Source: Prochlorococcus sp. AG-409-B13 (GTDB lineage Bacteria > Cyanobacteriota > Cyanobacteriia > PCC-6307 > Cyanobiaceae). Taken from it: DNA of 64,000 nucleotides. The DNA lies in contig QCJM01000001.1 in NCBI GenBank assembly GCA_003216035.1, positions 1 through 64,000 on the forward strand, given 5' to 3'. Below are positions 3,711 through 19,255 of this stretch, one piece after another (position 1 is the first letter of the stretch; each line of letters starts with the position of its first letter). Both the position numbers and the translations under genes were made by a program. The notes below the pieces were generated by a model. It made no database searches and was not told the DNA's origin. It worked only from the letters and a program-made list of their open reading frames with translations.

Positions 3711-3758
3711 ATATATTATGGCATTGAGATGGCTAAAAGCAATGTAAAAAGACAATAA

Positions 3759-3794: not shown

Positions 3795-3835
3795 ATTAAT
3801 TTGATATATGATGGTTTTGCTTGAATAAAGAATAA

Positions 3836-4699
3836 ATGGAAGATTCCACTAAAACCTTAGAGGTTTTTTACCGGAGACTTTTAAAGTCGCCACTAAAACT
3901 TGAAGAGAGAGAGAGAATAAGACTTAGTATAGTTGAAAGCGTTAGGAGTCAAAGGAATGCTGAATGGCTGTCAATATCAAAATCACTACCTAAGTTTAAA
4001 TCTCAGCTTAAATTCCTAGCTAATAATGGCTATTTAAGTATCAGCCATCCAGTTAGTTTAGAACTAGCGAAAGATATCAGTAGACTACCAAGGGGAGGGC
4101 GAGGTAACAACTTACGTACAGGAAATGAAGAAGTTGAAGCTTTATCTGGAGTAATAAATATCAATTCTGTTCAATCTTTAGTAAATGACAAAGCTTTATA
4201 CCAACTTGTAAGTCTATATTTAGGTGCACCAGCAAGAATTTATTCAGTAAGTGCCGCATGGCAATACCCTATGCCAACTAATCATAAACCTAGCAATGCA
4301 CAATTGTGGCATAGAGATAGGGATGACTTTGCATTCCTAAAGCTATTCCTTTATGGAAGTGACGTAGATAAGACTTGTGGGCCTCATGCATTCATCCCTA
4401 GAACACACAACAGTAAATCATCAAAAGAGATATTTAAGTCTTCCCAAAAAAAATACGAATCAATAATAGATGGTTCAAATCACCAGTTTTTTAACGATGA
4501 TTTATTAAAATCAATAGCTCACAATATAAAACCTTTAATATGGGTTGGTCCAAAGGCAACCTGCTTCTTAGAGGATACAAATGGGTTTCATAGGGCTTAC
4601 ATGCCCACAAAAAAACCTCGTCTTCTATTCCAAATCATCTGGACACTAGGCCCTGGATTTGATCCAGATCTTTACAAAAGGCAGTTAGAAGCGCTCTAA
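3836..4699 (+). CDS. Fe(II)/2-oxoglutarate dioxygenase, phytanoyl-CoA hydroxylase-like
   Basis: This 287-residue protein shows the facial triad of the PhyH superfamily: LWHRDRDD gives His159 and Asp161, and NGFHRAYMP gives the distal His252, followed by Arg262 (KPRLLFQ), which would bind 2-oxoglutarate. The double-stranded beta-helix region spans about 130-275, with a helical N-terminus. These enzymes hydroxylate or desaturate small molecules or carrier-bound acyl groups using O2. The substrate is unknown. It converges on the DUF4910 gene, with stop codons about 26 bases apart. A role in tailoring the product of the nearby cassette is only an inference. Confidence 0.7.
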   Translation: MEDSTKTLEVFYRRLLKSPLKLEERERIRLSIVESVRSQRNAEWLSISKSLPKFKSQLKFLANNGYLSISHPVSLELAKDISRLPRGGRGNNLRTGNEEVEALSGVININSVQSLVNDKALYQLVSLYLGAPARIYSVSAAWQYPMPTNHKPSNAQLWHRDRDDFAFLKLFLYGSDVDKTCGPHAFIPRTHNSKSSKEIFKSSQKKYESIIDGSNHQFFNDDLLKSIAHNIKPLIWVGPKATCFLEDTNGFHRAYMPTKKPRLLFQIIWTLGPGFDPDLYKRQLEAL

Positions 4700-4724
4700 T
4701 CATTAGAGAAAATTTTCCACTCTG

Positions 4725-6020
4725 TTATAATAAGTTAATCAATCCATGTTCTCTCAACTTTCGAATTATTGGAGCAACCTTCCATATTGGAACCTCTAAA
4801 AGATTAGCTATTGTTAAAAGATCAAGATTGCCATCACAATAACTAATAATATCCATCATTAACTGAGTAGAGTCCCAAGATCCCTTTATAGATAAGTCAG
4901 GATAAAGTCCTCTTTTCCCTAATTGTGGTTCGCCTAAAACTGTTACTAGAGGAGTATAGTTATCTTCAATAGCTTCAATAGTTCTCTGTAAAAGTAAATA
5001 GCTTTCTTGAAGTGCCTCAGGAGTAATAAGATCTAAATTATCTAATGAAGTATGGTATTCAGGATACTCACCAAATTTACTCCGACTAAATGTTGCTACA
5101 GGCAAGTCAATCCCTGGCGCACAATATTGACGTTCATCACTACCTCTATCTCTCCATGTATACTTTTTAAAGCTTGGAGCTGTAAATGAAATTGTATGTA
5201 GCAAAGCTTTGTCAGACAAAGTATTTCCATTTCTAGAAGGGAGAAATGAATAGTTTCTACTATCACCTACACAAGTTATATTAAAACCCGCTATCATAGT
5301 GCTTCTTAGATGTTCTAATTTACGACTTATATAAACAAGCGAACCAATAGTCTCAGGAATGAATACAGCCCTATAAGAATACCTATTTGTCTCCCTAGAT
5401 GAGATCCATTTCAATAGATTTGTTAAAACAACAGGTCCTGATATCTCATTATTAGCCATAGAAGGATGGCAAATATAAGTAGAAAAGAAAATCTCTTCCT
5501 CTGTACTTCCAGGGATAAATATTTCACCATAAGTCAGTGAACCTTCAGAAAGGCTTGAATCAATATGTACAAAGTATTTGCCTTCCTTTAGTGATTGTCT
5601 GAGATTATGCGAAAGGCAAAATCCCCATCTGGCCTTATAATAAGATGTGACATATGGAATTGCATCAGGCTGCTCTGGAATTGAATATAGGTGATCTTGT
5701 AAATCCTCCAGAGAAAGCCATTCACTTACAGGCTCAGAATAACCGACAACATGTAAATTATTCTTATCAAAGTCAATAATTTTTTTACCATTACTATCTA
5801 AAATATATGCTGAGTTTATCCTCCATTCCTTAGGCACTACCCAATCAAATGCCTTTGTGCCACTTGAAACCTCATGCAACCTTAACTCTGGCAAATGCCT
5901 AGATAAGATCGCAAGTGTTTCTCTAACACCAGGTCCAGTTAAGCTTCTACAGATTGGGAATAAATCAACAGCCAAGTTCCACATCTCTAACTTCATAGAC
6001 TCATCCTTTTGCCCACTCAT
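4725..6020 (-). CDS. DUF4910/DUF2172 aminopeptidase-like protein with C-terminal winged helix
   Basis: The 431-residue protein has the N-terminal LFPICRSLTGPGVRETL signature of the family, an M28-like zinc-peptidase fold with a nested DUF2172 domain, and a C-terminal winged-helix-like segment (about 370-431). Candidate metal ligands are in TYICHPSMANNEISG, DRGSDERQYCAPGIDLP and the PEYHTSLDNLD segment. Members are frequent in surface-polysaccharide loci of many bacteria; a glycan-related hydrolase or amidase role has been assumed, but the reaction is not established. It lies downstream of the AAC(3)-like gene on the same strand with a 92-base gap, probably one unit. Confidence 0.8.
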   Translation of the reverse strand: MSGQKDESMKLEMWNLAVDLFPICRSLTGPGVRETLAILSRHLPELRLHEVSSGTKAFDWVVPKEWRINSAYILDSNGKKIIDFDKNNLHVVGYSEPVSEWLSLEDLQDHLYSIPEQPDAIPYVTSYYKARWGFCLSHNLRQSLKEGKYFVHIDSSLSEGSLTYGEIFIPGSTEEEIFFSTYICHPSMANNEISGPVVLTNLLKWISSRETNRYSYRAVFIPETIGSLVYISRKLEHLRSTMIAGFNITCVGDSRNYSFLPSRNGNTLSDKALLHTISFTAPSFKKYTWRDRGSDERQYCAPGIDLPVATFSRSKFGEYPEYHTSLDNLDLITPEALQESYLLLQRTIEAIEDNYTPLVTVLGEPQLGKRGLYPDLSIKGSWDSTQLMMDIISYCDGNLDLLTIANLLEVPIWKVAPIIRKLREHGLINLL

Positions 6021-6112
6021 AGGTTTAAATCTTCTAACTTAAATTCATAGCATATAAACATGCTCAATAATAAGGGCATATCAAGTAGAATATATTAATT
6101 AACATTATTAAG

Positions 6113-6934
6113 CTAAGAAAGTGCCGCTAAGGATCTACGAGCGTTAGGATATTTAGGATTAACGGGAAAAACATATTTCCTAGAATTAGCAACATCAATT
6201 GAAGCCATATCAACTGACTCCTTAATATTAATAAGTTGAATATTTATATCATTAAAACTCGTTGTGATTAAATAAGAATCCTGCTCTAAAGCTATTTGAT
6301 ATTCTGGACTTATGCCTGTAGAAGAACATTTTTCTACATCCCTAACATAATGGATAAAACCTAATTTTTCTGTTTCAAATCCATGTCCAGTATAATTAGC
6401 ATGGAAAACTTTATAATAACGATAATCAACTTTTGCAATGATTTCTGCTAAATGCACGAAGGTAAACATCTCTCCGAATCCTTTACCTATAAACAGATTA
6501 AAACCTCTATTTTTATAAACATCTCCAAAACAGCTTTCCATGCCTAATCCATCCATACTCCTATTGCTAAGTAAAAGGTCCATATGAGGACCTTTTACAT
6601 AGAAGGAGTAAATAGGATGAAAGGTTCTTTTATAGCCAATTTTTTTTGCAATTCTAGCCAAAGCACCAGTGCGTCCAGGAGTTTGATATATATCAAAATC
6701 TTTGCCAATACAAAAATCCCAATTAAATGCTGGTATTAGAATAGTTGCTCCAGCTGATTCCAACCAACTATTTAAAGTGTTCAAGATTAATTCTCCTACA
6801 ACGGCAGGCTTAATACCGGTTTCTATTAAGAATGCACTTAAAAGAAGAACGTCACTACTTATAACATAGGGAGCTGGCTTAGGGATGCCGAATGATGCAA
6901 CAAGATGCGCATACAGAGGGCTAAAAATCTTCAT
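6113..6934 (-). CDS. AAC(3)-family N-acetyltransferase
   Basis: The 273-residue protein carries the family core TPGRTGALARIAKK (matching TPSRMGAL... of aminoglycoside 3-N-acetyltransferases), RTFHPIYSFYVKG, GLGMESCFGDV and the FTFVHLAEI segment. The family uses acetyl-CoA to acylate an amine on a sugar. In environmental bacteria, relatives inside polysaccharide clusters are thought to acylate amino sugars rather than confer drug resistance, and the context here favours that. The pairing with a DUF4910 gene suggests an acylate/deacylate or glycan-tailoring pair, which is inference. It diverges from the ACP operon. Confidence 0.75.
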   Translation of the reverse strand: MKIFSPLYAHLVASFGIPKPAPYVISSDVLLLSAFLIETGIKPAVVGELILNTLNSWLESAGATILIPAFNWDFCIGKDFDIYQTPGRTGALARIAKKIGYKRTFHPIYSFYVKGPHMDLLLSNRSMDGLGMESCFGDVYKNRGFNLFIGKGFGEMFTFVHLAEIIAKVDYRYYKVFHANYTGHGFETEKLGFIHYVRDVEKCSSTGISPEYQIALEQDSYLITTSFNDINIQLINIKESVDMASIDVANSRKYVFPVNPKYPNARRSLAALS

Positions 6935-7235
6935 TTAATTCATGCCTTATTACTTTTATCTTAGACTATCGAATACGAACAATGCAGGCGATACAATGCA
7001 AGAGTAAAAAGTTATCATCTCTAATGAATTGGAAGGACATTTTTAACTAGGCATAAACAAAAAGGTAGTCACGAGCCTTACTCATATTGCAAAATAAGAA
7101 TCCATCAATCAATGATTGAAAGTATGCAACTTAGTAAATACATAAGAATTGAAATTAAGGAGTATCATAATAACGAGTGGATTAGGCTATGGTCATGGTA
7201 TAATTAGTGAGTATGATTATTAGTTCCATCTATCA
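6935..7235 (+). promoter_or_regulatory. Divergent intergenic region with an extended -10 promoter for the ACP operon
   Basis: This 301-base gap separates the minus-strand AAC(3) gene from the plus-strand ACP operon. TGGTATAAT at 7196-7204 is a perfect extended -10 (TGnTATAAT), 31 bases before the ACP start codon. No good -35 is seen at the usual distance, as expected for an extended -10 promoter. The rest is AT-rich with no ORF I can support. Confidence 0.5.
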
Positions 7236-7484
7236 ATGGATGATCTTCTTCGGATCTACCAAGACGCCTTTGTGGAAGCATTTGAGCTTGCCGACAAGAG
7301 CACTCTTGCTGATCTGAAGTATCAAAGTATAGAAGAATGGGACTCTATCGGACATATGGCTTTAATGGCTGAATTGGAGTCAGGTTTCAACATTACAATT
7401 AAAACAGAAGACCTAATTCAGTTCGAGTCATATGTACAAGGAGTTGAAATACTTTCTCGTTATGATGTTCATATAAAAATCTAA
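7236..7484 (+). CDS. Acyl carrier protein, specialised
   Basis: The 82-residue protein has the 4'-phosphopantetheine attachment motif WDSIGHMALMAELE with Ser37 as the modified residue, and the four-helix length typical of ACPs. It is clearly different from the housekeeping AcpP at 47495-47737 (which has ADSLDTVE), so it is a dedicated carrier. It is the first gene of the plus-strand operon ACP, radical SAM, SDR, TktN, TktC. The likely job is to hold the acyl substrate that the convergent ligase/LuxE/LuxC genes activate or reduce. That partnership is inferred from position. Confidence 0.85.
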   Translation: MDDLLRIYQDAFVEAFELADKSTLADLKYQSIEEWDSIGHMALMAELESGFNITIKTEDLIQFESYVQGVEILSRYDVHIKI

Positions 7485-7511
7485 CTCTTATAAAATAACA
7501 AAATTCCAATC

Positions 7512-8594
7512 ATGCCACTCTTGCAAAAGCCACTAGTAGTAGATAAGTTTAGAAGTTTCCATGACTATGTTAAAGCTAATGATGGGAAAATAGGCTTAAA
7601 GCAACGTGGCCTAGATATTAATCTAAATAATGCGTGCAATCTAAAGTGTGAGCATTGTTTTACACTATCTCCAAAAGGTTTGCATGCTAAAGATAGATTC
7701 CCTATAGAAAAAATAAAGGAAATAGGTGATCAAGCTGATCAACTAGGAATATTTGAGATTGATCTGCAAGGCGGTGAGCTATTACTTGACCAGAATTACC
7801 TGTATTCGGTACTCAAAGCACTCAAAACAGAAAGGTTCTACGTATACGTAACAACAAATGGTTTCTTCATGACTAAAGAAGTTGCTGAAAATCTGTTCGA
7901 ATTGGGTGTTGACAGAGTGTCAGTTAGTATAGATAGTATTGATCCTGATACTCACGATAAATTTAGGGGAAAGAAAGGCTCCTGGGAAAGAGCAATTAAA
8001 GCTCTTGAATATGTAAAAGAGGCGGGAATGTCACCTTATCTTAATATTACTGTTGGTAGATATAATGTAGATTCTGAAGACTTAAAACTTCTATTAGATT
8101 ATTCAAAGGATAACAGGTACACAACTCTATTAAACGTAGCAACACCTGGTGGGATGTGGGCAAGTATGCATGAGATATGCATTAATGATGACGACCGAGA
8201 ACATCTAATAGCTATGAGGAAAAAATACAAGAATATCCTAAGGAATCTTTGGGATCCATTTGATCGGAATAGAGAAGGTGTGATCGGTTGCAATACGATC
8301 AATAGGTTATATATAACTCCTATTGGGGATGTACTTCCTTGTCCATATGTACATATTAAAATCGGGAATATCTTTGAACAGACTCTTCAAGAAATATCAG
8401 AGAATGGGTTTAGAGTAAAATATTTTAGAGAGTATAGTGAGAAATGTCTTGCAGGAGAGGATAGAGACTTTATAAATAATTATATGGCAAAGGGTAATAC
8501 AACTATTTTTAATCCCAAGAATTATGAAGATCTTTTTGGCGAGGATGAAATATTTAAAGATAAGGTATCTCTCCCTGCCAAGCCAATGGGATAG
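7512..8594 (+). CDS. Radical SAM/SPASM-domain protein
   Basis: This 360-residue protein has the [4Fe-4S]-SAM motif CNLKCEHC (Cys42, 46, 49) after a short N-terminal region, then a TIM-barrel with the GGE motif (LQGGELLL) at about 93-100. A C-terminal SPASM-type Cys set follows: GVIGCNTINRLYITPIGD, then LPCPYVH, then SEKCLAGED, which should bind at least one auxiliary Fe-S cluster. SPASM enzymes oxidise or rearrange peptides, alcohols or amines, or anaerobically mature proteins. The substrate here could be the ACP-bound group or a sugar; it cannot be told from sequence. It is 27 bases behind the ACP stop, clearly in the same operon. Confidence 0.85.
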   Translation: MPLLQKPLVVDKFRSFHDYVKANDGKIGLKQRGLDINLNNACNLKCEHCFTLSPKGLHAKDRFPIEKIKEIGDQADQLGIFEIDLQGGELLLDQNYLYSVLKALKTERFYVYVTTNGFFMTKEVAENLFELGVDRVSVSIDSIDPDTHDKFRGKKGSWERAIKALEYVKEAGMSPYLNITVGRYNVDSEDLKLLLDYSKDNRYTTLLNVATPGGMWASMHEICINDDDREHLIAMRKKYKNILRNLWDPFDRNREGVIGCNTINRLYITPIGDVLPCPYVHIKIGNIFEQTLQEISENGFRVKYFREYSEKCLAGEDRDFINNYMAKGNTTIFNPKNYEDLFGEDEIFKDKVSLPAKPMG

Positions 8595-8608
8595 AGAATG
8601 TACTAACT

Positions 8609-9340
8609 ATGAAGCATATGTTCATAACAGGAGCAAACTCTGGGATAGGACTTAGTACGTTTCTTCAATGCTTTGAAAACGGTATATTTCCCATAGGGGG
8701 AGTTAGAAGAGAGCAAGAGTTTAGAAATGAACTAAATCAAATGAATATTAAACCTGACTCATATGAAATAGTAGAAATGCGAATGGAGGAAATCAAGTCA
8801 CTTGAGAAATTAGTTCCTAAAATCAAGACTATTACAAAAAGCCTCGACGCTCTAGTTCTGAATGCAGGAGCAATTGAAACAGCACCTTCACTAATGACAA
8901 GCATAGAGAGTATCGAAAGGCATCTAAAGATTAATTTCACTCATCAAATTTATATAGCACAATCGATAGCAAAATCATTCTTCATTAAAAAAAGGAAAGG
9001 ATCGATTGTTGCAATTAGCAGCTCAGCCGCGATTGATGCGAATCCTGGAAGGCTTGCATATGCTGCATCCAAGTCAGCTTTGACGACTGCGATAAGAGTA
9101 ATGTCAAAAGAACTTGGTAGTGTAAGTATCAGATGCAATGTTGTGGCTCCAGGCCTTACTGAAACTAAATTAATGAGATCCTCAACAGAAGATGAGCAAA
9201 TTAAATTATTCACCCAAAATATTTCAATAAAAAGGCTAGGAAAACCAAATGAAATAGCGGATACTATTCATTTCCTATGTTCAGATAAAGCTAGCTTCAT
9301 CACTGGACAAGTTATTAATGTTGATGGAGGAATTCGATGA
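8609..9340 (+). CDS. Short-chain dehydrogenase/reductase (FabG-like)
   Basis: The 243-residue protein has the NAD(P)-binding motif TGANSGIG (residues 7-14), NAG at 85-87, the active-site Ser region ISSSAAID at about 136-143 and YAASK with Tyr151 and Lys155. The tail TGQVINVDGG is typical of the classical FabG-like group. It would reduce a ketone or oxidise an alcohol, possibly on the ACP or on the ketol made by the transketolase pair. It overlaps the next gene by 4 bases (ATGA), which implies translational coupling. Confidence 0.85.
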   Translation: MKHMFITGANSGIGLSTFLQCFENGIFPIGGVRREQEFRNELNQMNIKPDSYEIVEMRMEEIKSLEKLVPKIKTITKSLDALVLNAGAIETAPSLMTSIESIERHLKINFTHQIYIAQSIAKSFFIKKRKGSIVAISSSAAIDANPGRLAYAASKSALTTAIRVMSKELGSVSIRCNVVAPGLTETKLMRSSTEDEQIKLFTQNISIKRLGKPNEIADTIHFLCSDKASFITGQVINVDGGIR

Positions 9341-10155
9341 TAAGGCAAATAGATTGGAGAGAATTCAATTCAAAAGTAGAGCTTTTGAGAAGCACTTGCT
9401 TAAGAATAGCTGTAGCAGGTGGTGACAATGCAGCCCATATAGGCGGAGCATTGTCATGCATTGATTTTATTGCTATTGCTGATTCAATCTATAACTTTTC
9501 ATCTAATGCTAAAAGTATGCAATCATTAATTCTTTCAAAAGGTCATGCATGTCTTGCAATTTATGCTCTCTTAGCAACCTCAAAGATAACAACTATAGAT
9601 GAGATCATTGAATCATTTGAAAAAAATGGTTCAAGATTCTTAGGCCACCCTTGTAAGCATCAGGACTTAGGTATTATGTATTCAACTGGAAGTTTAGGTA
9701 ATGGACTTGCATATGCTGTAGGGCAAGCATTACATGAATCAAAATTCAAAAAAGATGAGGCTTCAAAAACTCCTATTGTTTGCATTATAGGAGATGGTGA
9801 ATGTAATGAAGGAATAGTATGGGAAACAATGGAATTTATTAGCAAGCTAAAGCTTGATAATCTCATCATTTTTGTTGACTGCAATGGGTGGCAACAAACT
9901 CAAAGATGTCTATACTTCAAAGATGATTATAAACTTTTACATATGAGGTTTAACACATTTAATATAGATTCTTATTTGATAGATGGACATGATTACGATC
10001 AGATAAATAGTGTCCTGAATATAACCTCAAACAAGACAAAAGTAATCCTAGGGAAAACAATAAAAGGCAAAGGATATGAACTCTTTGAAAATAATAATGA
10101 ATGGCATCATGGAATACTTACTAAGCAACATTTTGACGAAATTCATTCAAATTAA
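9337..10155 (+). CDS. Transketolase N-terminal subunit (thiamine diphosphate-binding half)
   Basis: The 272-residue protein matches the first third of transketolase. It has KGHACLAIYALL, SLGNGLAYAVGQA and the ThDP/Mg motif GDGECNEG at 152-159, with Asn157 in the GDG...N pattern. The second half is the next gene, 6 bases on, so the active enzyme is probably an alpha2-beta2 assembly. A full-length housekeeping transketolase is also in the window at 49049-51058, so this pair is likely to have a dedicated substrate. C2 ketol transfer to an aldehyde, or from a ketose phosphate, is the family chemistry. Confidence 0.85.
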   Translation: MIRQIDWREFNSKVELLRSTCLRIAVAGGDNAAHIGGALSCIDFIAIADSIYNFSSNAKSMQSLILSKGHACLAIYALLATSKITTIDEIIESFEKNGSRFLGHPCKHQDLGIMYSTGSLGNGLAYAVGQALHESKFKKDEASKTPIVCIIGDGECNEGIVWETMEFISKLKLDNLIIFVDCNGWQQTQRCLYFKDDYKLLHMRFNTFNIDSYLIDGHDYDQINSVLNITSNKTKVILGKTIKGKGYELFENNNEWHHGILTKQHFDEIHSN

Positions 10156-10161
10156 TCATCA

Positions 10162-11151
10162 ATGGAAAATAAAATTACATTCGAATTTTCAAAAAAAGAC
10201 TCAAAACGTGCAAATATACTTGGACTAAGAGCTGCATATGGATTGTCGACTCTAAACTGTAAAGAAGCCTATCCAGATTTAGCGGTATTTACAGCTGACA
10301 CCTCGACTTCTGCAGGACTAGATAGATTTAAAAATAGCTATCCAGACTCTTTTTATGATTGTGGGATTGCAGAACAATGTCTTATATCAAGTGCAGCAGG
10401 TTATGTAGCCTCAGGAGGAACAGCACTTGCTTCTACTTTTGCACCTTTCTTGATACTTAGAGCAGCTGAACAAGTACGTCTATCTCTTGGATATATGAAT
10501 ATACCACTATTGATTACTGGTTTAGCAAGTGGGCTCACTTTAGGTCATCTTGGTTACACTCATTGTTGTGTAGAAGATCTATCTTTTATTCTAAGCATAC
10601 CTAATATTCTAATTTACTCTCCTTCAGATTCATATGAGCTTAAGTGTATCCTTCCAAAACTTATAGAATTGAAAAGGCCAACATACATAAGGTTAACTGG
10701 AAGTGCAAAAGTAAAGGCAGTTCATAAAGAATCTTTTACTACGGACTTCTTCTCACCTATTCATATTTTAGGATCTGGGAATAAACTACTTCTTCTTAGC
10801 ATTGGAACAATTTCAGGTAATGCAATTCAAGCACTAGAGTCATTAGGGAGCTCATATCTAGACCAAATAAGTCTATTTGTAGTTCCATTTTTGAATGGTG
10901 AAAAAACCAGGTCAGCAATTTCAAAACTTATCTGTAATTTTAATAATATACTTGTACTGGATGAATCAACTTATGGAGGCCTAGCTGCACTTGTCGGTAG
11001 GGAAATCCTAAAGATAAATCATAAAATCAACTATGCTTACAATATCCATCCAGAATATTATCTTATCTCAGGTCAACATGATTACATGCTTTCACAATGT
11101 AAGCTTGATACAAAGGGTATTAAGGATAGTATAATTAATCTTCTTGAATAA
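10162..11151 (+). CDS. Transketolase C-terminal subunit (pyrimidine-binding half)
   Basis: This 329-residue protein has the pyrimidine domain and C-terminal domain of transketolase. DCGIAEQ carries Glu71, which should activate the ThDP aminopyrimidine. ASTFAPFLILRAAEQVR is the usual helix after it. It works with the N-terminal subunit immediately upstream (6-base gap). The stop codon is only 5 bases from that of the convergent FabZ-like gene. The last gene of the plus-strand operon. Confidence 0.85.
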   Translation: MENKITFEFSKKDSKRANILGLRAAYGLSTLNCKEAYPDLAVFTADTSTSAGLDRFKNSYPDSFYDCGIAEQCLISSAAGYVASGGTALASTFAPFLILRAAEQVRLSLGYMNIPLLITGLASGLTLGHLGYTHCCVEDLSFILSIPNILIYSPSDSYELKCILPKLIELKRPTYIRLTGSAKVKAVHKESFTTDFFSPIHILGSGNKLLLLSIGTISGNAIQALESLGSSYLDQISLFVVPFLNGEKTRSAISKLICNFNNILVLDESTYGGLAALVGREILKINHKINYAYNIHPEYYLISGQHDYMLSQCKLDTKGIKDSIINLLE

Positions 11152-11156
11152 TCAAT

Positions 11157-11582
11157 TTATTCTAATGGCCATAATAATTGCAATAAGGCTTTCGAAATAA
11201 GTTTCTTATCTTGAAAATTTCTTATCTTACAAGAAAATTGATAGATGTTTCTTATCTTTTCTTCATGCTCAGCTGAAACCTCGATAAGCATCCCTGGTAC
11301 TACCTTTTTACGGAAGGATGCAGAAATAACAGATACTAAATAAAGTTTTTTAGGAGGAGGGTCACATGAAAATAAGCAAAGCGAAGCAGTCTGGCTCATA
11401 GCCTCAAGTTGCAGCATTGCAGGCATATTAGGGTCACCCTCCCAATGGCACTTAAAGAACCATTCATCCTCAGATAATGAAAGCTTGGTTAATGCCTTCT
11501 GATAAGGCGTTACCTCTAATACTTCATCTATAAATAAAAATGGTGGCCTATTAGGTTGTACTAGTAAAAGGTTTTTCTCCAT
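11157..11582 (-). CDS. FabZ-like hot-dog dehydratase
   Basis: The 141-residue protein has the FabZ N-terminal pattern PPFLFIDEVLEV and the active-site segment FKCHWEGDPNMPAMLQLEAM, with His46 and Glu60 as the expected catalytic pair. The usual GHFPG is altered to CHWEGD. It would dehydrate a 3-hydroxyacyl thioester, presumably on the island's own ACP, but divergence leaves a thioesterase or isomerase role possible. Its start overlaps the LuxC stop by one base (TAATG), making it the last gene of the minus-strand operon. Confidence 0.75.
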   Translation of the reverse strand: MEKNLLLVQPNRPPFLFIDEVLEVTPYQKALTKLSLSEDEWFFKCHWEGDPNMPAMLQLEAMSQTASLCLFSCDPPPKKLYLVSVISASFRKKVVPGMLIEVSAEHEEKIRNIYQFSCKIRNFQDKKLISKALLQLLWPLE

Positions 11583-12790
11583 TAGATAAATACCTGCCTA
11601 GTCAAGGTTTCCAGGAAATGCTGTCCATCCCAAAGCAAACTGAATTTAAGGGCATGTCCAATTGGTATTATACGATCTGGAGTTTTAGAACCAAGTTTAT
11701 TTGATATTTTAACTGCAAAGTCATAATCCATTGGATTAATTAATGAAAGAGTTTGAATATCACTAGGCCACGTATTTACTATTTCTTCTTCATAATCTGC
11801 ATTAATAAAATATACATGACAATCCATTTGTTCTTTTGAAATAGAAGGGACTTCTTTTGACGATATGTAATAAATAGACTTACCTGCTATTAGTTGTATT
11901 GGTTTACACTTGGTACGTTGCAATAAATTAGACTGATTATCAAGGAAATTATTGGTACTCATAACTCCCATTTCAGTTTCACTCCTAGCTATCATTCCAG
12001 AAATTCGTTCTAGAAAGTCTAATACTAATAAATATTTTTCAGATTTACGACCCAGCCAATAAGTATAGTGAGGTGATGAGCAAGCTTTGAATGTAAATTG
12101 TATTGTGTCATCTATATATCTACGGCACAATAGGTTGCGTCCTGTATTATCTAATTCTGAATAATTTCCCACATCAATAATAGAAACAGAATGTCTTGTT
12201 GGAAAGCACAAATCAATTACAGCTTCAGTAGGATATTTAGATCTAATGGTACTTATAGTAGAATAACTTCCCCAAACAATTCTTACCTTACAAACTTTGC
12301 TAGCGATTAAGGTAAGCTGCTCGCTATATTTACTGGAGTAGAATATATTCATCTTCCCATCAATTGGACCTATCACCTTATCTATCAAGTCAACTAAGCG
12401 CCCTATATAAGTATCATCCAACCTTCTACTAATACGAACTATATTTGGATTTCCTGCAAGGTAAGAAGGCAGCCAGGAGTAGAAAGGCATAAGAGGAATG
12501 TTTCCAGAAGGTATATGAAACGTCGTTCCCTTACCAAAATAAATTTGAGACTTCTCTTTAAACCATGTATGAAATTGCTCTACTAATTCAAAAGAGAATA
12601 CTGATAAGGCTAATAAATCAGAATCTTTCTGATAAACTGCTAAATCCTTAATTGAGTTAGATAATTTAACTAATTTATCAATTCTTTCCAAATTAACTCT
12701 AGAGGACTTTAGGCAATTAGATTGAAGGTATTCTGCTGCCTCATTTAAGTCAATGCTTGACTTAATAAACATCGCTACATCCTCGAACAA
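11582..12790 (-). CDS. LuxC-family acyl-thioester reductase
   Basis: The 402-residue protein matches PF05893 (LuxC). HIPSGNIPLMPFYSWLPSYL at about 92-111 is the nucleotide-binding entry region, and FKACSSPHYTYWLG contains the expected catalytic Cys237. The family reduces acyl thioesters to aldehydes with NADPH, taking the acyl group from LuxE. It overlaps the LuxE-like gene by 29 bases, so the two are tightly coupled. No LuxA/LuxB luciferase genes occur in the window, so the aldehyde is not for light here. Its aldehyde could be the acceptor for the split transketolase, which is inference. Confidence 0.85.
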   Translation of the reverse strand: MFEDVAMFIKSSIDLNEAAEYLQSNCLKSSRVNLERIDKLVKLSNSIKDLAVYQKDSDLLALSVFSFELVEQFHTWFKEKSQIYFGKGTTFHIPSGNIPLMPFYSWLPSYLAGNPNIVRISRRLDDTYIGRLVDLIDKVIGPIDGKMNIFYSSKYSEQLTLIASKVCKVRIVWGSYSTISTIRSKYPTEAVIDLCFPTRHSVSIIDVGNYSELDNTGRNLLCRRYIDDTIQFTFKACSSPHYTYWLGRKSEKYLLVLDFLERISGMIARSETEMGVMSTNNFLDNQSNLLQRTKCKPIQLIAGKSIYYISSKEVPSISKEQMDCHVYFINADYEEEIVNTWPSDIQTLSLINPMDYDFAVKISNKLGSKTPDRIIPIGHALKFSLLWDGQHFLETLTRQVFI

Positions 12791-13781
12791 TGGTCTTTTT
12801 TAGCCTTCCTAAAATATGAAAGTATTTACCAGGCTTCCCACAAATACAATCGTCCTCTCCATAACATATGCCTATATCCTCAGTAAGTAAAGATTGGCCT
12901 GGGTAACTTTTTGGTAATAGCGAAATGCTCTGGACAATTCCTTCATCCCCAAAATTCTTTTTATTAAAATTGTTATCTCTAATAATAAGAGAATTGTACT
13001 GATTTGTATGAAGATACCCTTTATTGCACTCTATAGAAATTGACCCAGTTTGTTCAATCATTCCATAATAGTTTCGACAAACCACATTTGGTATGACAGA
13101 AGATGCTATCTTATTAAATTCTTTATTTGGAATCCCATAACTAGCGAGTTTTTTCCAGCCGCCACCATGCAAAAGCACCATATTTTTACCATTCAATTTT
13201 ATGCCTAAGTCTAACAATTTCTTCAAGAAATCTAAATAAACTGTATAAGTAAACCCAAAAGCTAAAACTTGTTTAGTTTCACATCGCAATTCTTCCAAGA
13301 CTTCCTCATTCAAATCTCCATTCTCATCAAGAACAAATCTAATTCCTCTACCAAGAGAAGAAAAGCCCCTTATAGCTGCATAGCGTGCATCAAGGGCACC
13401 AGAGTTGGATTCTGGATAGGGCCTATCAATAACATAATAATTTGGTCGAGACAATAGATTAAGGTCAAGGTCATCAAGAACTATCTTTTTCAATGCTCGC
13501 TGCTGATCAATTCTTGTGTATCGATCAGCATATACATGACTTCTACTAGAACTAGAAGTGCCAGAAGAAAGAAATAATATCATTTCCCTTTCATCTTTAT
13601 TAGTACTAATTAATTTATTAGTTTTAAACAAGCCTGTATGTATAAATATATTCTCAGGTTGGGAATCAATAAGAGGACTCCATCCAAGGCCATCTATAAT
13701 GTTTCTAAACCCTTCGCATTTCTCATAGTGCCATTGGTGAAGGCTCTTTAACTCATCATAAAAATAATTCGAGGTGTCCAT
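12762..13781 (-). CDS. LuxE-like acyl-protein synthetase
   Basis: This 339-residue protein belongs to the LuxE family (PF04443), an adenylate-forming enzyme lacking the small C-terminal domain. The nucleotide loop LFLSSGTSSSSRSHV lies at about 69-83, and the C-terminal GRLKKTIVRGCSDVY carries the conserved RGCSD that ends LuxE-type proteins. LuxE normally activates an acid with ATP, forms an acyl-Cys and hands it to LuxC. It is upstream of and overlapping LuxC, and 5 bases after the AMP-ligase gene. The presence of two adenylating enzymes side by side suggests two activation steps or one degenerate copy. Confidence 0.8.
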   Translation of the reverse strand: MDTSNYFYDELKSLHQWHYEKCEGFRNIIDGLGWSPLIDSQPENIFIHTGLFKTNKLISTNKDEREMILFLSSGTSSSSRSHVYADRYTRIDQQRALKKIVLDDLDLNLLSRPNYYVIDRPYPESNSGALDARYAAIRGFSSLGRGIRFVLDENGDLNEEVLEELRCETKQVLAFGFTYTVYLDFLKKLLDLGIKLNGKNMVLLHGGGWKKLASYGIPNKEFNKIASSVIPNVVCRNYYGMIEQTGSISIECNKGYLHTNQYNSLIIRDNNFNKKNFGDEGIVQSISLLPKSYPGQSLLTEDIGICYGEDDCICGKPGKYFHILGRLKKTIVRGCSDVY

Positions 13782-13786
13782 ATTGA

Positions 13787-15181
13787 TTATTTACTGACCT
13801 GAATATTATTTAATAACTGCTTATATGCAATTTTACCAGAAGAAGTTATAGGTATATTTAACCTAAGAAGAAGAAATTTTCGTCTAGAGATTCCCGTCAT
13901 ATCTTTAAGCCTATTTATTATATATTCTTCCTTAGGATTCAAATCTCCAGGCACTACTACATATATAAGATCATCATCTGAGACTAAAGCTATATCTCTA
14001 ATATTAAGCCTAAGCTCTCCTTCCAATGCATCCAGGGAAATTCTATATCCATCAATTTTAGCAAATCTTGAGGTTCTCCCAGTGATAGAGATGCATCCAT
14101 CTTTATCAATTATACCTAAATCACCAGTTTTAAGCCTTCCGCAATTGTTATCAATAGGATTGATCAGTTGTTCTCTACCTGTAAAGTAACCAAGGCTAAT
14201 ATTTCTTCCTTTAAAGATTAATTCAACTTCTTCTCCTGACCTATTTTCATTTAAGTCAAGAGTAACTCCATTAATTGGCCTGCCAACTGACCCTATTTTA
14301 GAAGGCTCTCTAGTTAATTCCAAATACGTCAACCTTGCCGTGGCTTCAGTCTGTCCATACATTATAAATAATTTGATTTGATTTGACAAACTCCAACTTA
14401 GAAACTCCATTTGTATTTCCTTCTCCAGCTTCCCTCCAGCCTGAGTAAGATGTTTAATACTCTTTGGAAAGAGACTTTTATAATCTAAGTTGTTCAAGTC
14501 TCTATAAGACTTAGGAACACCAGAAAAATCAGTAACTCCAAAGTATTTCAAATCATCCCAAAATGACTTTCTAATAATAGATGGCTCTTCGCTACAGATA
14601 TAACTACCACCCTTAAATAATGTTGTGTTTAGAACTGAGAGCCCATAGGAATAACTACATGGCAAGTTATTTACAGAGCGCGTATCTTTATCATTCTCTA
14701 AATAATCACATATAGAAGAGCAATTTGTTAATAGATTTTCATATGTTAACCCTACATATTTAGGCGTGCCACTGGAACCTGATGTCCCTAACAAAAGTAA
14801 AGGAGAATTCGTCAATTCCTCTTTATTAGGTGAACTTTCTAGTTTACACAAGTTAAATAATTCTGTTTCTATTTGATTAGTAAAGCCACATTTATTCATC
14901 TGTTTTTTACTGCCTAATATAACTCCTGGTTTAAATGCATTTAATATTGACGCTAATTGTCTTTCTACTAAACTTGAATCGAGCAATATAATTGTTCGCT
15001 TAGCTATTACACATGAAATAATTGAGAGCACAGTCGAGGCACTTTTATCATCTATAATCAAAGTCAAATCGGCTAGGTGGATTTCTTCATTAATGATATG
15101 ACTACCCAATGCAAAGCTTTCGGAATTGAACTCCCTCTCTCTTGTAAGTATCTTACCTTTAGTATAAAGAAGATTGTTCAT
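13787..15181 (-). CDS. AMP-dependent acyl-CoA/ACP synthetase (ANL superfamily)
   Basis: The 464-residue protein has the ANL P-loop LLGTSGSSGTPKYVGL (about 130-145), the adenine motif YGQTEATARL at 275-284, the TGD hinge at 352-354 and a C-terminal SSGKIAYKQLL with the candidate catalytic Lys. It is short for the family (usually 500-550 residues), mainly in the N-terminal part. It would adenylate a carboxylic acid and load it onto CoA or onto the island ACP. First gene of the minus-strand operon ligase, LuxE, LuxC, FabZ. The chain length it accepts is not predictable here. Confidence 0.8.
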   Translation of the reverse strand: MNNLLYTKGKILTREREFNSESFALGSHIINEEIHLADLTLIIDDKSASTVLSIISCVIAKRTIILLDSSLVERQLASILNAFKPGVILGSKKQMNKCGFTNQIETELFNLCKLESSPNKEELTNSPLLLLGTSGSSGTPKYVGLTYENLLTNCSSICDYLENDKDTRSVNNLPCSYSYGLSVLNTTLFKGGSYICSEEPSIIRKSFWDDLKYFGVTDFSGVPKSYRDLNNLDYKSLFPKSIKHLTQAGGKLEKEIQMEFLSWSLSNQIKLFIMYGQTEATARLTYLELTREPSKIGSVGRPINGVTLDLNENRSGEEVELIFKGRNISLGYFTGREQLINPIDNNCGRLKTGDLGIIDKDGCISITGRTSRFAKIDGYRISLDALEGELRLNIRDIALVSDDDLIYVVVPGDLNPKEEYIINRLKDMTGISRRKFLLLRLNIPITSSGKIAYKQLLNNIQVSK

Positions 15182-15208
15182 AATCTCTGGTTAATAAATA
15201 ATTTATAG

Positions 15209-15628
15209 TTAAGAGAAAACACGTAACTCTCTCCATTTTTTGTATCCACTATCTCCACCTCGACGATCGAACTCAGGTTGAAAGTATGCGTCCCAGTAAT
15301 TAACTAATGCTTTTTGTGGTCTACCGCTTTGTTCATCTAACTTTTCTCGAAGCTCGCGTTGCTTATCAATAACCCATTTCACTGCTTTCTTTGCTACCTC
15401 ATAAGGATCTTGAGTATCTAAAGATCCATCTATAGTTTTACGTTTCCCACTTTTGGTACGACCTTGATTAGGTCTTGGTTCGTCTTCTGGTAGGGGAAGG
15501 AATCTTCCGAAGATATTTGGACTTTTATTATTTTTAAAAATGCGAAGATCCCTTGGATATGAACCTCTTATCGCAAACACCTCAGCGAAATTAAGGTTTC
15601 TCCAGCCAATAGGTATGTCCTTCGGCAT
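15209..15628 (-). pseudogene. N-terminal remnant of an integrase, probable
   Basis: The 139-residue frame reads MPKDIPIGWRNLNFAEVFAI and later PRDLRIFKNNK, DPYEVAKKAVKWVIDKQREL, YWDAYFQPEFDRRGGDSGYK and ends KKWRELRVFS. The segment ...YWDAYF...FDRRG...YKKW resembles the N-terminal SAM-like/core-binding part of tyrosine recombinases from picocyanobacterial islands. The catalytic R-K-H-R-H-Y domain is absent, so it is truncated if the call is right. The family is recalled from pattern only and could be wrong; otherwise it is an unknown basic protein. The acyl-ligase gene starts 28 bases beyond its stop. It pairs with the C-terminal remnant at 1238-1390. Confidence 0.5.
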
Positions 15629-15752
15629 CCAGTCCTCTACCTCCGAGTAACACTAATCCGACGAATAGTTACCCCATATTGGCACAAAAGGCATGAGAGT
15701 GGTATGGAAGTGAGGTAAATTTTGTTGCTTTTTCCTTACTAACACTGGAATC

Positions 15753-15872
15753 TCAAGTGTTTATCCCCAGTTCGAATTTGGTTGCCGCATTCTTACCTTT
15801 CTTAAAACCGATCCCTGTGATCAGTTGCAAGAACTCAAATATTAGATCTCTTTTCCTAATTCTTTTCGCCAT
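15753..15872 (-). CDS. Small basic hypothetical protein
   Basis: ATG at 15870-15872 opens a 39-residue frame: MAKRIRKRDLIFEFLQLITG, then IGFKKGKNAATKFELGINT. It is basic at the N-terminus with a hydrophobic helix. No family recognised. It starts 9 bases after the pseudoknot-like inverted repeats at 15882-15948 and precedes the integrase remnant on the same strand, so it could be a small mobile-element regulator. Too short to be sure it is expressed. Confidence 0.3.
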   Translation of the reverse strand: MAKRIRKRDLIFEFLQLITGIGFKKGKNAATKFELGINT

Positions 15873-15881
15873 AAACGGTGG

Positions 15882-15948
15882 CGGTACATTGGTGTTACTC
15901 GACTAGTACCATCGACCTATCTTTAATGTACCGTCTTTGTAACACCAA
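15882..15948 (-). promoter_or_regulatory. Interlocked inverted repeats, possible RNA pseudoknot or recombinase site
   Basis: Two pairs of complementary segments are interleaved. CGGTACATT (15882-15890) pairs with AATGTACCG (15925-15933), and TTGGTGTTAC (15889-15898) pairs with GTAACACCAA (15939-15948). The order A-B-A'-B' is that of an H-type pseudoknot. Related GTAACACTAA occurs at 15647-15656. It lies directly upstream of the minus-strand ORF starting at 15872. Either a cis-acting RNA or a set of protein-binding arms is possible. The rest of 15629-16048 has no other gene. Confidence 0.4.
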
Positions 15949-16048
15949 GTCAGTAACAGGGAATTTTGTAATTTATGACCTATTGCTCACTATTGGATTA
16001 TCAAGTTTGCTTAGGGTCATCGGAAATAGAAACTAACTTAATTTTAAA

Positions 16049-16193
16049 ATGGCAATAATTAATTTTCAAAGCCAAGCATTAATGACAGGGACAAACATAG
16101 GACTAGGACTTTGCAATTGCTGAAGAATTAAGCAGTACAAAATGGACATCTTATTATATATCCAAGGCGTCACTAAATATACCAATAGTCTAA
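16049..16193 (+). pseudogene. Collapsed short-chain dehydrogenase remnant
   Basis: ATG 16049 starts MAIINFQSQALMTGTNIGLG, which has the SDR nucleotide-binding pattern TGxxxGxG. The frame stops at a TGA after GLCNC. One base shift at about 16112 restores AIAEELSSTKWTSYYISKAS and then LNIPIV and a stop at 16191-16193. YYISK looks like the SDR catalytic YxxxK. In a real SDR these motifs are about 130 residues apart, so a large internal deletion plus a frameshift has occurred. It is unrelated in position to the intact SDR at 8609-9340. Confidence 0.6.
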
Positions 16194-16296
16194 AGTAATT
16201 GATTTGCAGAACCCATAACTTCACTTCCACTAGAACCACCCGCTCTAAAAACTTGTGAGCAAACAGCAGTGCCCATAAAGCTGCGAAAAAGAACTA

Positions 16297-16446
16297 ATGG
16301 AACAAGATATTTTTCACTTAATAAATCGTGGAGTTACTCAGTCCGAATCTGCTATAGCGATCAAAGAAAAATACCTAAGCAAGCTTTGCAGGCAATGGCA
16401 GAAGAAGCAATTACTGGAGATTGGTTGGTATTCTGAAGTTGCTTAA
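16297..16446 (+). CDS. Small hypothetical protein ending in the repeated EVA tail
   Basis: ATG 16297 opens a 49-residue frame: MEQDIFHLINRGVTQSESAI, then AIKEKYLSKLCRQWQKKQLL and EIGWYSEVA. It is predicted helical with a basic middle. Its 3' 72 bases recur, with a stop, at 1169-1240 and, much shorter, at 16811-16838. In the two longer copies this frame keeps the same end point and several synonymous changes, which supports coding. No known family recognised. It may be a short conserved protein of picocyanobacterial islands. Confidence 0.45.
   Translation: MEQDIFHLINRGVTQSESAIAIKEKYLSKLCRQWQKKQLLEIGWYSEVA
16374..16445 (+). repeat. 72-bp dispersed repeat, intact copy
   Basis: Ungapped partner of 1169-1240 in the same orientation. 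It covers the C-terminal 24 codons of the ORF at 16297-16446. A 28-base match to its 3' end, with small indels, is at 16811-16838. Confidence 0.55.
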
Positions 16447-16543
16447 AAACAGGTATTTGTCACCATTGAATATTGCTCGCAGCGATCTAAAATTGAATTA
16501 GGAGTCAGAGCACGAACTGCCTAAAAAATAAGTGCTTGACTCA

Positions 16544-16571
16544 AAGGGCGGGATCGAAATACCCCGCCCTT
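16544..16571. terminator. GC-rich hairpin, terminator-like
   Basis: AAGGGCGGG and CCCGCCCTT form a perfect 9-bp stem around a 10-base loop. The tail is CTTAATG on the plus side and TGAGTC on the minus side, so no strong T-run follows in either direction. It lies about 100 bases after the 49-residue ORF. Confidence 0.55.
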
Positions 16572-16641
16572 CTTAATGCATTACTGAAATCAAAAAAATC
16601 GACTAAAAGAAGGGCAGCCAAGTCCCGATCCATGTCTCTGA

Positions 16642-16812
16642 TACCACCGATGGGAATACATCACTAAGGACGCAAAAGCTATAACGAAGCAGGTTGTCCT
16701 TTCTGCGTTAGTTCTTCTACTTTCACTTTGGCTCATAAGAGCACTCATCCCTTGGATAATAGTTGCTTTGTTGGGGGCTTGTGCATTCAAATGGTGGTCG
16801 AAGGGCAGTTGA
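16642..16812 (+). pseudogene. Small membrane protein lacking an obvious start
   Basis: The plus frame reads YHRWEYITKDAKAITKQVVL, then SALVLLLSLWLIRALIPWII and VALLGACAFKWWSKGS before TGA at 16810-16812. It holds two strongly hydrophobic segments and a basic end, like many short cyanobacterial membrane proteins. No ATG, GTG or TTG occurs early in the frame after the preceding stop, so it is either a truncated gene or starts at a rare codon. A minus-strand ORF at 16590-16790 overlaps it but has a less protein-like composition. Confidence 0.4.
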
Positions 16813-16835
16813 TTTGGTTGTCTCCCTGAAGACGT

Positions 16836-16964
16836 CTAGTTGTAGTCTTTTAACTCATTCATTGATTTGATCTTGCCTCCAAACCTGATCTTCGGAACTG
16901 GCTTGATTGTGCATCTTGCTCTTTGAGCAGACTTCTCAGCGAGAAGCTCATAGATGACTACCAC
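16836..16964 (-). CDS. Small basic hypothetical protein, GTG start
   Basis: GTG at 16962-16964 opens a 42-residue frame with YELLAEKSAQRARCTIKPVP and KIRFGGKIKSMNELKDYN. Base composition and lack of low complexity suggest coding. I do not recognise it. The stop is immediately next to the short repeat copy at 16811-16838, just as the integrase remnant stop at 1238 abuts another copy. Confidence 0.35.
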   Translation of the reverse strand: MVVIYELLAEKSAQRARCTIKPVPKIRFGGKIKSMNELKDYN

Positions 16965-17015
16965 AAAGTAACAATCACGAGATCAAGGTGGACAATCTAA
17001 ATGGAGATAATTCAT

Positions 17016-17522
17016 CTATAAATTCATTGTTGCCTTCATATGGGAAAAGGATTTCCTCAAAGTAATTGCGATAGCTCCTGTATGCTCATATATATATCTT
17101 CTATCTCGTTTAATTTCTAGCCCATAGGGATTCAAGAAAATTGAAAGCAAGATTCTTAAGAATCTGAGTAAATTATTCTTTCCCGAAGAATCTTCAAGAC
17201 ATAATTGAGCAAGCCGACATATCACATCTTCACGAAAAATTTGATCTTCTCTAAATACTTTAATTATTCTATCCCTCTCCCTCACATTTAAAGTATCAAT
17301 CAGTATTTTTAAACTTCTTATTGAATCCATATCTCCTTTAATAATTTCTCTTCCTATACTTTGATATAGATTCTCCCATTTATATGGTTCCTTTATAAAA
17401 AGATCAACAGCATTAGAGGCTAAGTTTGCTTTGGAAAGGCGTTTCTGATCATCATCATCATCTTGTGCCGATCTCCAATATTCATAAAGGGGAGAAGCTT
17501 GGGCCAGCCCAGAAAAATTCAT
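17016..17522 (-). CDS. Hypothetical protein
   Basis: The 168-residue frame starts MNFSGLAQASPLYEYWRSAQ and contains an Asp-rich run DDDDDQ at about 21-26, then mixed charged helices (RERDRIIKVFREDQIFRED) and a hydrophobic stretch NNLLRFLRILLSIFL at about 115-129. The composition is that of a real soluble protein. No motif recognised. No operon partner; the nearest genes are small and unrelated. Confidence 0.5.
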   Translation of the reverse strand: MNFSGLAQASPLYEYWRSAQDDDDDQKRLSKANLASNAVDLFIKEPYKWENLYQSIGREIIKGDMDSIRSLKILIDTLNVRERDRIIKVFREDQIFREDVICRLAQLCLEDSSGKNNLLRFLRILLSIFLNPYGLEIKRDRRYIYEHTGAIAITLRKSFSHMKATMNL

Positions 17523-17764
17523 AATGAATGGAAAATAGTCTTAAGGTGATCGGAGGCAACTTCACTTAGGTTACTCTCAAGCATGCTTCACAGATATCTA
17601 CCTTATGCGATGCAGCTGTAAGCAAGAGGTAACAGCCTAAAAATCATCTTCTTTCAATTTCCTCCTCAAAACCCTAGAACATATTAAAAGCAATAGCGTT
17701 TTCAAAAGCAAAAAATTGTCCCCTTGCCGTGGTACATATAAGTAATGCACCAAACCTAAAAGAT

Positions 17765-17917
17765 ATGGCTTTCAACCCTCCACGTTGCTCTAATTGCAAA
17801 AACTTCGAAGGCTCTGCTCAGACTGGAGGCTTCTGCCGGCTTTGGTGTGTTGCTGTTCCACAAGATTCAATGAAATCAATTAAATGCCAATATTGGTATC
17901 CAAAAGCCAATAATTAG
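17765..17917 (+). CDS. Small Cys-rich protein, possible zinc ribbon
   Basis: ATG at 17765 gives 50 residues starting MAFNPPRCSNCKNFEGSAQT; a GTG at 17729 would add 12. The Cys pattern is CxxC near residue 8, then FCRLWC and a Cys near the end (IKCQYWYP), enough to bind one metal. Short proteins with this CxxC...C...C spacing occur across picocyanobacteria with no known role. It ends in KANN. Confidence 0.55.
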   Translation: MAFNPPRCSNCKNFEGSAQTGGFCRLWCVAVPQDSMKSIKCQYWYPKANN

Positions 17918-18078
17918 ATCCACTGATTTATCTAGAATATACAAATTTAAATACATTAAAGTAAAAGGTATTTTAGGGTTCATGATTCTAAGAAGACTAC
18001 AAGAACGGCTAAGGTCTAAGAAAAATTCTACAAATGAACTGATACATACTAAGAACAATCAACTTATCATCATTCACA

Positions 18079-18351
18079 TTAATCTAATTTTTCCCCGGGA
18101 CCATTTAGATATCTACAACAAGCATAAATAGGCTTATTTAATATAGGCTCTCCATTCTCATGATGCTCAACACCAATCCGATGACAAGTCTTCAATAATT
18201 GATTACTTACACCTCTCACAAAATTCATACTTGATACATCATTGTCTAGGCCTGTTTCACCATAGCGAATTTCACAAGACCTAACATTAGCTTTTACCTC
18301 CAAAGGGGACATGAGAAGCATACTGAATATAAAAAAAATCTTTCTCATCAA
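18079..18351 (-). CDS. Small exported Cys-containing protein
   Basis: The 90-residue protein starts MMRKIFFIFSMLLMSPLEVK with a clear signal peptide and a probable cleavage after VKA at about residue 22. The mature part has four Cys (RSCEIR, KTCHRI, YACCRY), suitable for disulfides in the periplasm. No family recognised. It lies 45 bases downstream of the 143-residue gene on the same strand, so the two may be cotranscribed. Confidence 0.6.
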   Translation of the reverse strand: MMRKIFFIFSMLLMSPLEVKANVRSCEIRYGETGLDNDVSSMNFVRGVSNQLLKTCHRIGVEHHENGEPILNKPIYACCRYLNGPGEKLD

Positions 18352-18396
18352 TTCTCTTGCTTAAGCTCAGCCAAGAAAAGTATAGTCACTTAATCA

Positions 18397-19170: not shown

Positions 19171-19255
19171 ATGTCAATTACTTTATAAAGACAACTCATA
19201 TCTGCATAGCAGATCTCTTTTCAAAGAAACCTAAATTATCTCTGCTTATCTTCAA

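Follow-up and report, generated by a model that had tools for sequence, protein, structure and literature searches.

We identified nine genes in a Prochlorococcus genome that probably act as one biosynthetic cassette, predicted by sequence comparison to equip a surface glycan with an unusual substituent or sugar derived from an acyl group. They lie in a window of 64,000 nucleotides (positions 1 to 64,000, forward strand, of contig QCJM01000001.1 from Prochlorococcus sp. AG-409-B13, assembly GCA_003216035.1). Eight of the genes recur together in other genomes, and the split transketolase among them has lost residues of its sugar-phosphate site.

Gene content and setting of the locus

The cassette and two neighboring genes that are probable extensions of the locus are as follows.

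4725–6020, minus strand: DUF4910/DUF2172 aminopeptidase-like protein, probable extension
6113–6934, minus strand: AAC(3)-like acyltransferase (Pfam Antibiotic_NAT), probable extension
7236–7484, plus strand: acyl carrier protein (ACP), with the Ser37 phosphopantetheine site in WDSIGHM
7512–8594, plus strand: radical SAM/SPASM-twitch protein (Pfam radical SAM 2e-27, SPASM 9e-8)
8609–9340, plus strand: SDR (FabG-like) reductase (Pfam SDR 2e-44; S138/Y151/K155 intact)
9337–10155, plus strand: TktN, ThDP-binding half of a split transketolase (Pfam Transketolase_N 1e-23)
10162–11151, plus strand: TktC, its pyrimidine-binding half, 329 aa (Pfam Transket_pyr 2e-22)
11157–11582, minus strand: FabZ-like hotdog dehydratase (Pfam FabA-like 2e-17; catalytic H46/E60 intact)
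11582–12790, minus strand: LuxC-type acyl reductase (Pfam LuxC 4e-19)
12762–13781, minus strand: LuxE-type acyl-protein synthetase (Pfam LuxE 1e-34)
13787–15181, minus strand: AMP-forming acid:ACP ligase (ANL; Pfam AMP-binding 2e-32)

The nine ORFs that an earlier note had read between 7236 and 15181 are all present and intact at these positions, and their catalytic residues are intact in sequence comparisons across the cassette enzymes. Pfam domains were assigned; the ACP falls below the PP-binding cutoff (17.6 versus 20.8 bits), but its phosphopantetheine serine is invariant, as D36/S37 of the DSxGHM motif are unchanged in 77 cassette ACPs. Intergenic distances within the cassette run from −29 to +27 nt, LuxC starting at a TTG at 12790 and overlapping LuxE, and 5 nt separate the two convergent operons. 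The locus sits in an island of low G+C content: 34% over the cassette and 35% over positions 1–20,000, against 43% in the remainder. A promoter and terminator scan returned matches at or below chance. Relatives of the Antibiotic_NAT acyltransferase occur in four transketolase-positive cassettes (L011, L030, L039, and L052) and in a radical SAM cassette (L024); those of the DUF4910/DUF2172 protein occur in L030, L039, and L052. The window also encodes a housekeeping transketolase at 49049–51058.

The two operons are inherited together

Searching genome contigs with a single LuxE sequence gave 0 matches, and an alignment query found relatives. Among 300 genomes of the host family, the four other LuxE-positive genomes all carry TktN/TktC/SDR/ACP together with AMP ligase/LuxE/LuxC/FabZ; the eight core genes are thus together in 5/5 host-family loci, and the same eight are found on the Rhizobium plasmid pRlX3. 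Because of this co-occurrence, we conclude that the two operons are one system, as the earlier note had proposed, and its alternative that they are unrelated neighbors is ruled out by their co-inheritance. The outcome that the note had named as refuting its reading, a failure of the genes to co-occur elsewhere, was looked for and did not arise; the radical SAM gene proved optional.

Farther afield, 66 longer LuxE loci were compared from other genomes, and 29 of these have TktN/TktC; the 80 loci collected are the best LuxE matches and not a random sample. The two transketolase genes adjoin LuxE/LuxC in at least eight phyla: Bacillota, Pseudomonadota, Bacteroidota, Cyanobacteriota/Melainabacteria, Synergistota, Elusimicrobiota, Planctomycetota, and Spirochaetota. 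In the converse test, covering 367 genomes of the phylum, every genome with a cassette-type TktC (>400 bits; next match, 317) is also LuxE-positive (6/6; Fisher 8.6e-12, ignoring kinship). We conclude that these genes are found together much more often than chance would allow. The evidence supports the surface setting that had been suggested for it, the loci being surface-glycan or flagellin-glycan islands. One copy of the locus (L026) is in the endophyte Kosakonia oryzendophytica; a search of E. coli genomes found no DNA resembling the Kosakonia copy, and no LuxE relatives were found in viral contigs.

The split transketolase has an altered acceptor site

In E. coli numbering, the window TktN retains the equivalents of H26, H66, H100, D155, N185, and H261, and TktC those of E411, F434, F437, and H473. 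Across the cassette transketolases H261 and E411 are kept in all, and H26, H66, H100, and H473 in nearly all. The sugar-phosphate site is altered: the window enzyme keeps R358 and S385, and H461 is replaced by Ala, D469 by Leu, and R520 by Gly. Every cassette transketolase examined has lost H461 and D469, and nearly every one has lost R520 (to Gly, or to Asp in L030; it is kept in L056). H461, D469, and R520 are residues that adapt a transketolase active site to phosphorylated hydroxyaldehydes. All three are kept in the housekeeping transketolase of the window, in E. coli TktA, and in 24 housekeeping split transketolases. These acceptor-site residues, together with the gap in scores across the phylum, rule out a housekeeping or catabolic split transketolase.

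D469 and R520 have been mutated so that E. coli transketolase takes non-polar aldehydes, and an enzyme evolved in the laboratory for aliphatic and aromatic aldehydes was altered at S385, D469, and R520 (PMC5073344). The residue comparison supports the earlier proposal of a transketolase acting on an aldehyde: the active site of the cassette enzyme is of the kind that a non-phosphorylated aldehyde calls for. The same losses might also weaken binding of a phosphorylated ketose donor, and hydroxypyruvate is a possible donor.

These residues also bear on the published reading of flagellin islands (PMC4875605, PMC7575072), in which a fatty-acid-type pathway places an ordinary lipid or acyl chain on the glycan (a "liposugar") and the transketolase genes merely supply sugar precursors. 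We consider this unlikely for the cassette: its transketolase lacks sugar-phosphate-site residues and a housekeeping enzyme is already encoded in the window, LuxE and LuxC produce aldehydes and not acyl chains, and the window locus has no ketosynthase, KAS III being absent from 29/34 transketolase-positive loci.

The ThDP partner is exchangeable

Of the 66 LuxE loci, 29 have the transketolase, 14 have an acetolactate-synthase-like ThDP carboligase, and none has both (p = 1e-4, ignoring kinship); 23 have neither. The two kinds of partner interleave on the LuxE tree, on which the ThDP partner has switched many times. Since a pyruvate-type carboligase can stand in for the transketolase, aldehyde acceptors fit better than a second role that had been suggested for TktN/TktC, namely to load the ACP with a glycolyl (hydroxyacetyl) group taken from a ketose phosphate, the substrate of LuxE/LuxC being either glycolyl-ACP or a different acyl group. 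The dedicated ACP does share an operon with the transketolase genes, and PMC7570522 reports a precedent for a split transketolase with an ACP in nonribosomal peptide pathways. That route, as described there, comes with a KAS III (NapE/DinQ) and a long DinS of 754 aa; in the window locus KAS III is absent and TktC has 329 aa, and only 5/34 transketolase-positive loci have a KAS III. The absence of KAS III from the locus disfavors glycolyl loading, to which we give little credence. We favor an aldehyde followed by ketol transfer because of the acceptor-site losses, the replacement of the ThDP partner, and its repeated switching on the LuxE tree.

Acid activation, reduction, and an optional module

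Gly180 of the ligase aligns (to LgrA) where an Asp anchors alpha-amino groups, and Gly occupies this column in 99% of 81 cassette ligases; this Asp-to-Gly change rules out an amino-acid:carrier ligase of the DltA or NRPS A-domain type. The SSGT motif of LuxE is invariant. So are its C335, which lines up with the cysteine of KGCS in the 7xc6 LuxE (89 LuxE sequences), and C237 of LuxC, in ACSSP (82 sequences). Both proteins score far under the curated equivalog cutoffs (LuxE 42.4 versus 550; LuxC 33 versus 750 bits), ruling out a luciferase-type LuxCE. The genes assigned at the locus include neither luxAB luciferase nor the thioesterase luxD, in agreement with the luciferase absence reported earlier. 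AMP ligase and LuxE are both acid-activating and hard to order, which counts against the pathway proposed below.

The FabZ catalytic pair is conserved (H46 in 97% and E60 in 100% of 33 sequences), its equivalog score being 77 bits versus the 113 needed. The radical SAM protein has C42xxxC46xxC49 and three further invariant cysteines (C260, C277, and C312); its structure model (pLDDT 86.5) has SkfB as best fold match, and the match to BtrN, a radical SAM alcohol dehydrogenase, is weak (5e-6). It is not a core member, as had been assumed; with FabZ it makes up an optional module, in which a GMC oxidoreductase can replace it. The partner of ∼140 aa that accompanies the GMC enzyme matched no Pfam family, and no radical SAM relatives were found on plasmids.

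Proposed pathway and its significance

The comparisons establish the gene set, its conservation, the intact catalytic residues, the altered acceptor site, and the exchange of ThDP partners; in the scheme below, the reactions, their order, the donor, the cargo, and the product are inferred. The AMP ligase would activate a carboxylic acid other than an alpha-amino acid and load it onto the dedicated ACP. The LuxE cysteine, charged either directly from acid and ATP or from the ACP, would hand the acyl group to LuxC for reduction to an aldehyde. TktN/TktC would then add a two-carbon ketol unit to the non-phosphorylated aldehyde, giving a 1,3-dihydroxy-2-ketone, and the SDR would reduce a carbonyl. 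An optional oxidation/dehydration module may consist of FabZ and the radical SAM protein or, in other loci, of FabZ and the GMC oxidoreductase.

The transketolase could instead act first, on a small metabolite, its product being oxidized to the acid for the ligase and LuxE/LuxC reduction coming last before attachment. Loci without any ThDP enzyme still have ACP, SDR, AMP ligase, LuxE, and LuxC, which means that a pathway can stop at the aldehyde, and the radical SAM or GMC oxidoreductases could produce the acid. Against this order, both oxidoreductases are missing from most transketolase-positive loci (23/34), and the order of the genes says nothing about that of the reactions; we regard it as improbable. 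The order ligase, ACP, LuxE, LuxC, transketolase, SDR is the one we prefer. More tentatively, the cassette may exemplify a widespread chain-extension logic, in which carrier-activated acids become aldehydes that interchangeable ThDP carboligases extend (transketolase by a C2 ketol, the acetolactate-synthase-like enzyme by a C2 acetyl unit) to higher-carbon sugars or polyol substituents on bacterial surface glycans; a further module for dehydration would use either a radical SAM or a GMC enzyme as its oxidant.

For gene blocks filed under fatty-acid synthesis in flagellin-island papers, the proposal offers a chemical function that can be tested. Their hosts are as varied as picocyanobacteria and SAR11 of the open ocean, Clostridia of the gut, and enterobacteria associated with plants. 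The proposal may also help explain unassigned glycan masses: the flagellin glycan of Aeromonas piscicola has an unknown 102 Da moiety (PMC7874193), and its island carries a short form of the cassette, which we offer as a lead only. Natural transketolases altered where engineers mutated for non-polar aldehydes would be useful for biocatalysis.

Comparison with known systems

The cassette shares with the fatty acid reductase complex of luxCDABE the acyl-cysteine region of LuxE and the catalytic cysteine of LuxC; it differs in lacking LuxD and LuxAB and in having a dedicated ACP and AMP ligase. Flagellin-island blocks have the same core genes, and the Dickeya block has both transketolase genes, but their gene lists lack the FabZ/radical SAM module of the window. 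Dickeya papers file these genes, beside flagellin, under "fatty acid biosynthesis," and such blocks have been assigned to the synthesis of fatty acids or liposugars, or judged unlikely to be flagellar, with ketol chemistry not proposed; our literature search found no paper proposing aldehyde-then-ketol chemistry for this gene set. In the available part of PMC7570522, the two-component transketolases NapB/NapD and DinS/DinU stand, as in the cassette, beside a dedicated ACP, and NapB/NapD are proposed to transfer glycolyl to it in naphthyridinomycin-type pathways; these systems are tied to KAS III and NRPS, have a longer partner subunit, and are described there with no LuxE/LuxC. The closest solved relative of TktN and TktC is the split transketolase of Carboxydothermus hydrogenoformans (6YAK/6YAJ), for which bulky aldehydes are acceptors when hydroxypyruvate is the donor (PMC7661550). 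That enzyme keeps the equivalents of H461 and D469 (in THAGL and GED) and an Arg at the R520 position (in GRS), whereas the cassette enzymes have lost them.

The nine-gene cassette is one co-inherited system

Nine intact ORFs at 7236-15181 form two convergent operons whose ends are separated by 5 nt.

Within 7236-15181, plus strand: ACP, radical SAM/SPASM protein, SDR, TktN and TktC (ORFs; Pfam except ACP)
Within 7236-15181, minus strand: AMP ligase, LuxE, LuxC and FabZ (ORFs; Pfam)

The ACP is slightly under the Pfam cut-off, and its phosphopantetheine serine is invariant. The cassette, at 34% G+C versus 43%, lies in a low-G+C island; window 1-20000, at the contig edge, resembles a surface-polysaccharide island (35% versus 43% in the remaining window). 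The 287 aa protein at 3836-4699, which had no match in Pfam or NCBIfam, resembles a phytanoyl-CoA-dioxygenase on reading, and loci L024 and L039 have ORFs of similar look.

The earlier note allowed that the operons were unrelated neighbours and proposed nine-gene co-occurrence as one check. Across 300 genomes of the host family, we found LuxE in 4 besides the host, and all 4 contained AMP ligase, LuxE, LuxC, FabZ, TktN, TktC, SDR and ACP; the genes followed one of three arrangements. The host's family includes Prochlorococcus sp. AG-409-G20 (genome G006, whose contig is that of locus L016). Rhizobium plasmid pRlX3 also has this set of eight, and both LuxE and TktC occur on related plasmids from Rhizobium. 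When 84,980 species genomes were scanned with a profile, at least 551 LuxE relatives emerged; among the best 80, 66 non-duplicate loci had at least 10 kb, and TktN/TktC were present in 29 of these, mostly on the same strand and a few kb from LuxE, with contig ends hiding partner genes in some sampled loci. Conversely, cassette-type TktC occurred in 6 of 367 genomes of the phylum, all six with the LuxE cassette. Because of this reciprocal co-occurrence, we rejected unrelated neighbours; co-occurrence held for eight genes, while radical SAM was present in 7 of 34 loci with TktN/TktC (Tkt+). Other members of the phylum have a second, distantly related LuxE-like family (L104-L113), in some cases within long ORFs (842 and 868 aa), with no tie to the cassette.

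The transketolase acceptor site is altered

Aligned to E. coli TktA, window TktN/TktC keep H26, H66, H100, D155, N185, H261, E411 and H473, and have A at 461, L at 469 and G at 520. No cassette transketolase examined retains D469 or H461 (we place H461 in the phosphate-binding site); R520 is replaced in nearly all (exception, L056), and some have Y or F at 385. H461, D469 and R520 are all kept in the window's housekeeping transketolase (49049-51058) and in 24 housekeeping split transketolases from other genomes of the phylum; plasmid-borne catabolic split transketolases usually retain H461 and R520. In the E. coli enzyme, the phosphate of the substrate is contacted by S385 and the entrance is narrowed by R520; stepwise evolution of that enzyme toward non-polar aliphatic and then aromatic aldehydes gave the S385Y/D469T/R520Q variant (PMC5073344). 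The Carboxydothermus split transketolase accepts bulky aldehydes with hydroxypyruvate (PMC7661550).

Two ThDP carboligases exchange beside LuxE/LuxC

An acetolactate-synthase-like (ALS-like) enzyme was present in 14 of the 66 longer loci (L020, L028, L029, L035, L036, L040, L042, L049, L050, L062, L068, L079, L090, L091), none with Tkt (p = 1e-4, ignoring phylogeny, among best-match loci). On the LuxE tree, where some loci are truncated, the Tkt label requires 28 changes and the ALS-like label 12; well-supported branches force at least 16 and at least 12 changes, respectively, the bootstrap being not fully converged. No other finding argues as strongly for the LuxC aldehyde being the acceptor of both carboligases: two unrelated enzymes that add C2 to a carbonyl acceptor exchange beside an aldehyde-making pair.

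NeuB-type nonulosonate genes were enriched in ALS-like loci (12/14 versus 4/34 Tkt+). An AAC(3)-like/DUF4910 gene pair adjoins the cassette (4725-6934), with relatives in Tkt+ cassettes of SAR11 (L039), Methylocystaceae (L052) and Lachnospiraceae (L030) and none among longer loci with the ALS-like or neither enzyme. Doubled TktN/TktC (L030, L048, L058) or LuxE/LuxC (L071) pairs suggest that extension occurs twice in succession or that two products are made.

A FabZ/putative oxidase module and the proposed route

Of the 34 Tkt+ loci, 10 combine FabZ with radical SAM or GMC, and 22 lack all three (p = 9e-7, ignoring phylogeny). GMC occurred in 5, never with radical SAM; the gene between FabZ and SDR is radical SAM in L039 and L054 and GMC in L010, L011, L013, L052 and L066. 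We infer that the radical SAM and GMC enzymes both oxidise an alcohol, which sequence and fold do not decide; among radical SAM enzymes, BtrN is known as an alcohol dehydrogenase.

Our best reading of these genes is that the AMP ligase, which lacks the Asp for an amino group, would load an acid as acyl-ACP; an acyl group, drawn from either the ACP or the free acid, would pass to LuxE/LuxC and become an aldehyde, which the transketolase would convert to a C2-ketol product, to be reduced by the SDR and joined to a glycan.

Comparison with published gene sets

The gene set is already on record, but the papers open to search gave no chemistry for it. ACP, FabG, AMP synthetase, LuxE and LuxC occur in Aeromonas group II flagellin islands (PMC7874193), and similar sets in Enterobacteriaceae islands (PMC4875605), both interpreted as liposugar. 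The Aeromonas piscicola AH-3 island has the short ACP/SDR/AMP/LuxE/LuxC form, and its flagellin glycan carries a 102 Da moiety left unidentified in that paper (PMC7874193); this moiety is possibly the product of the short form.
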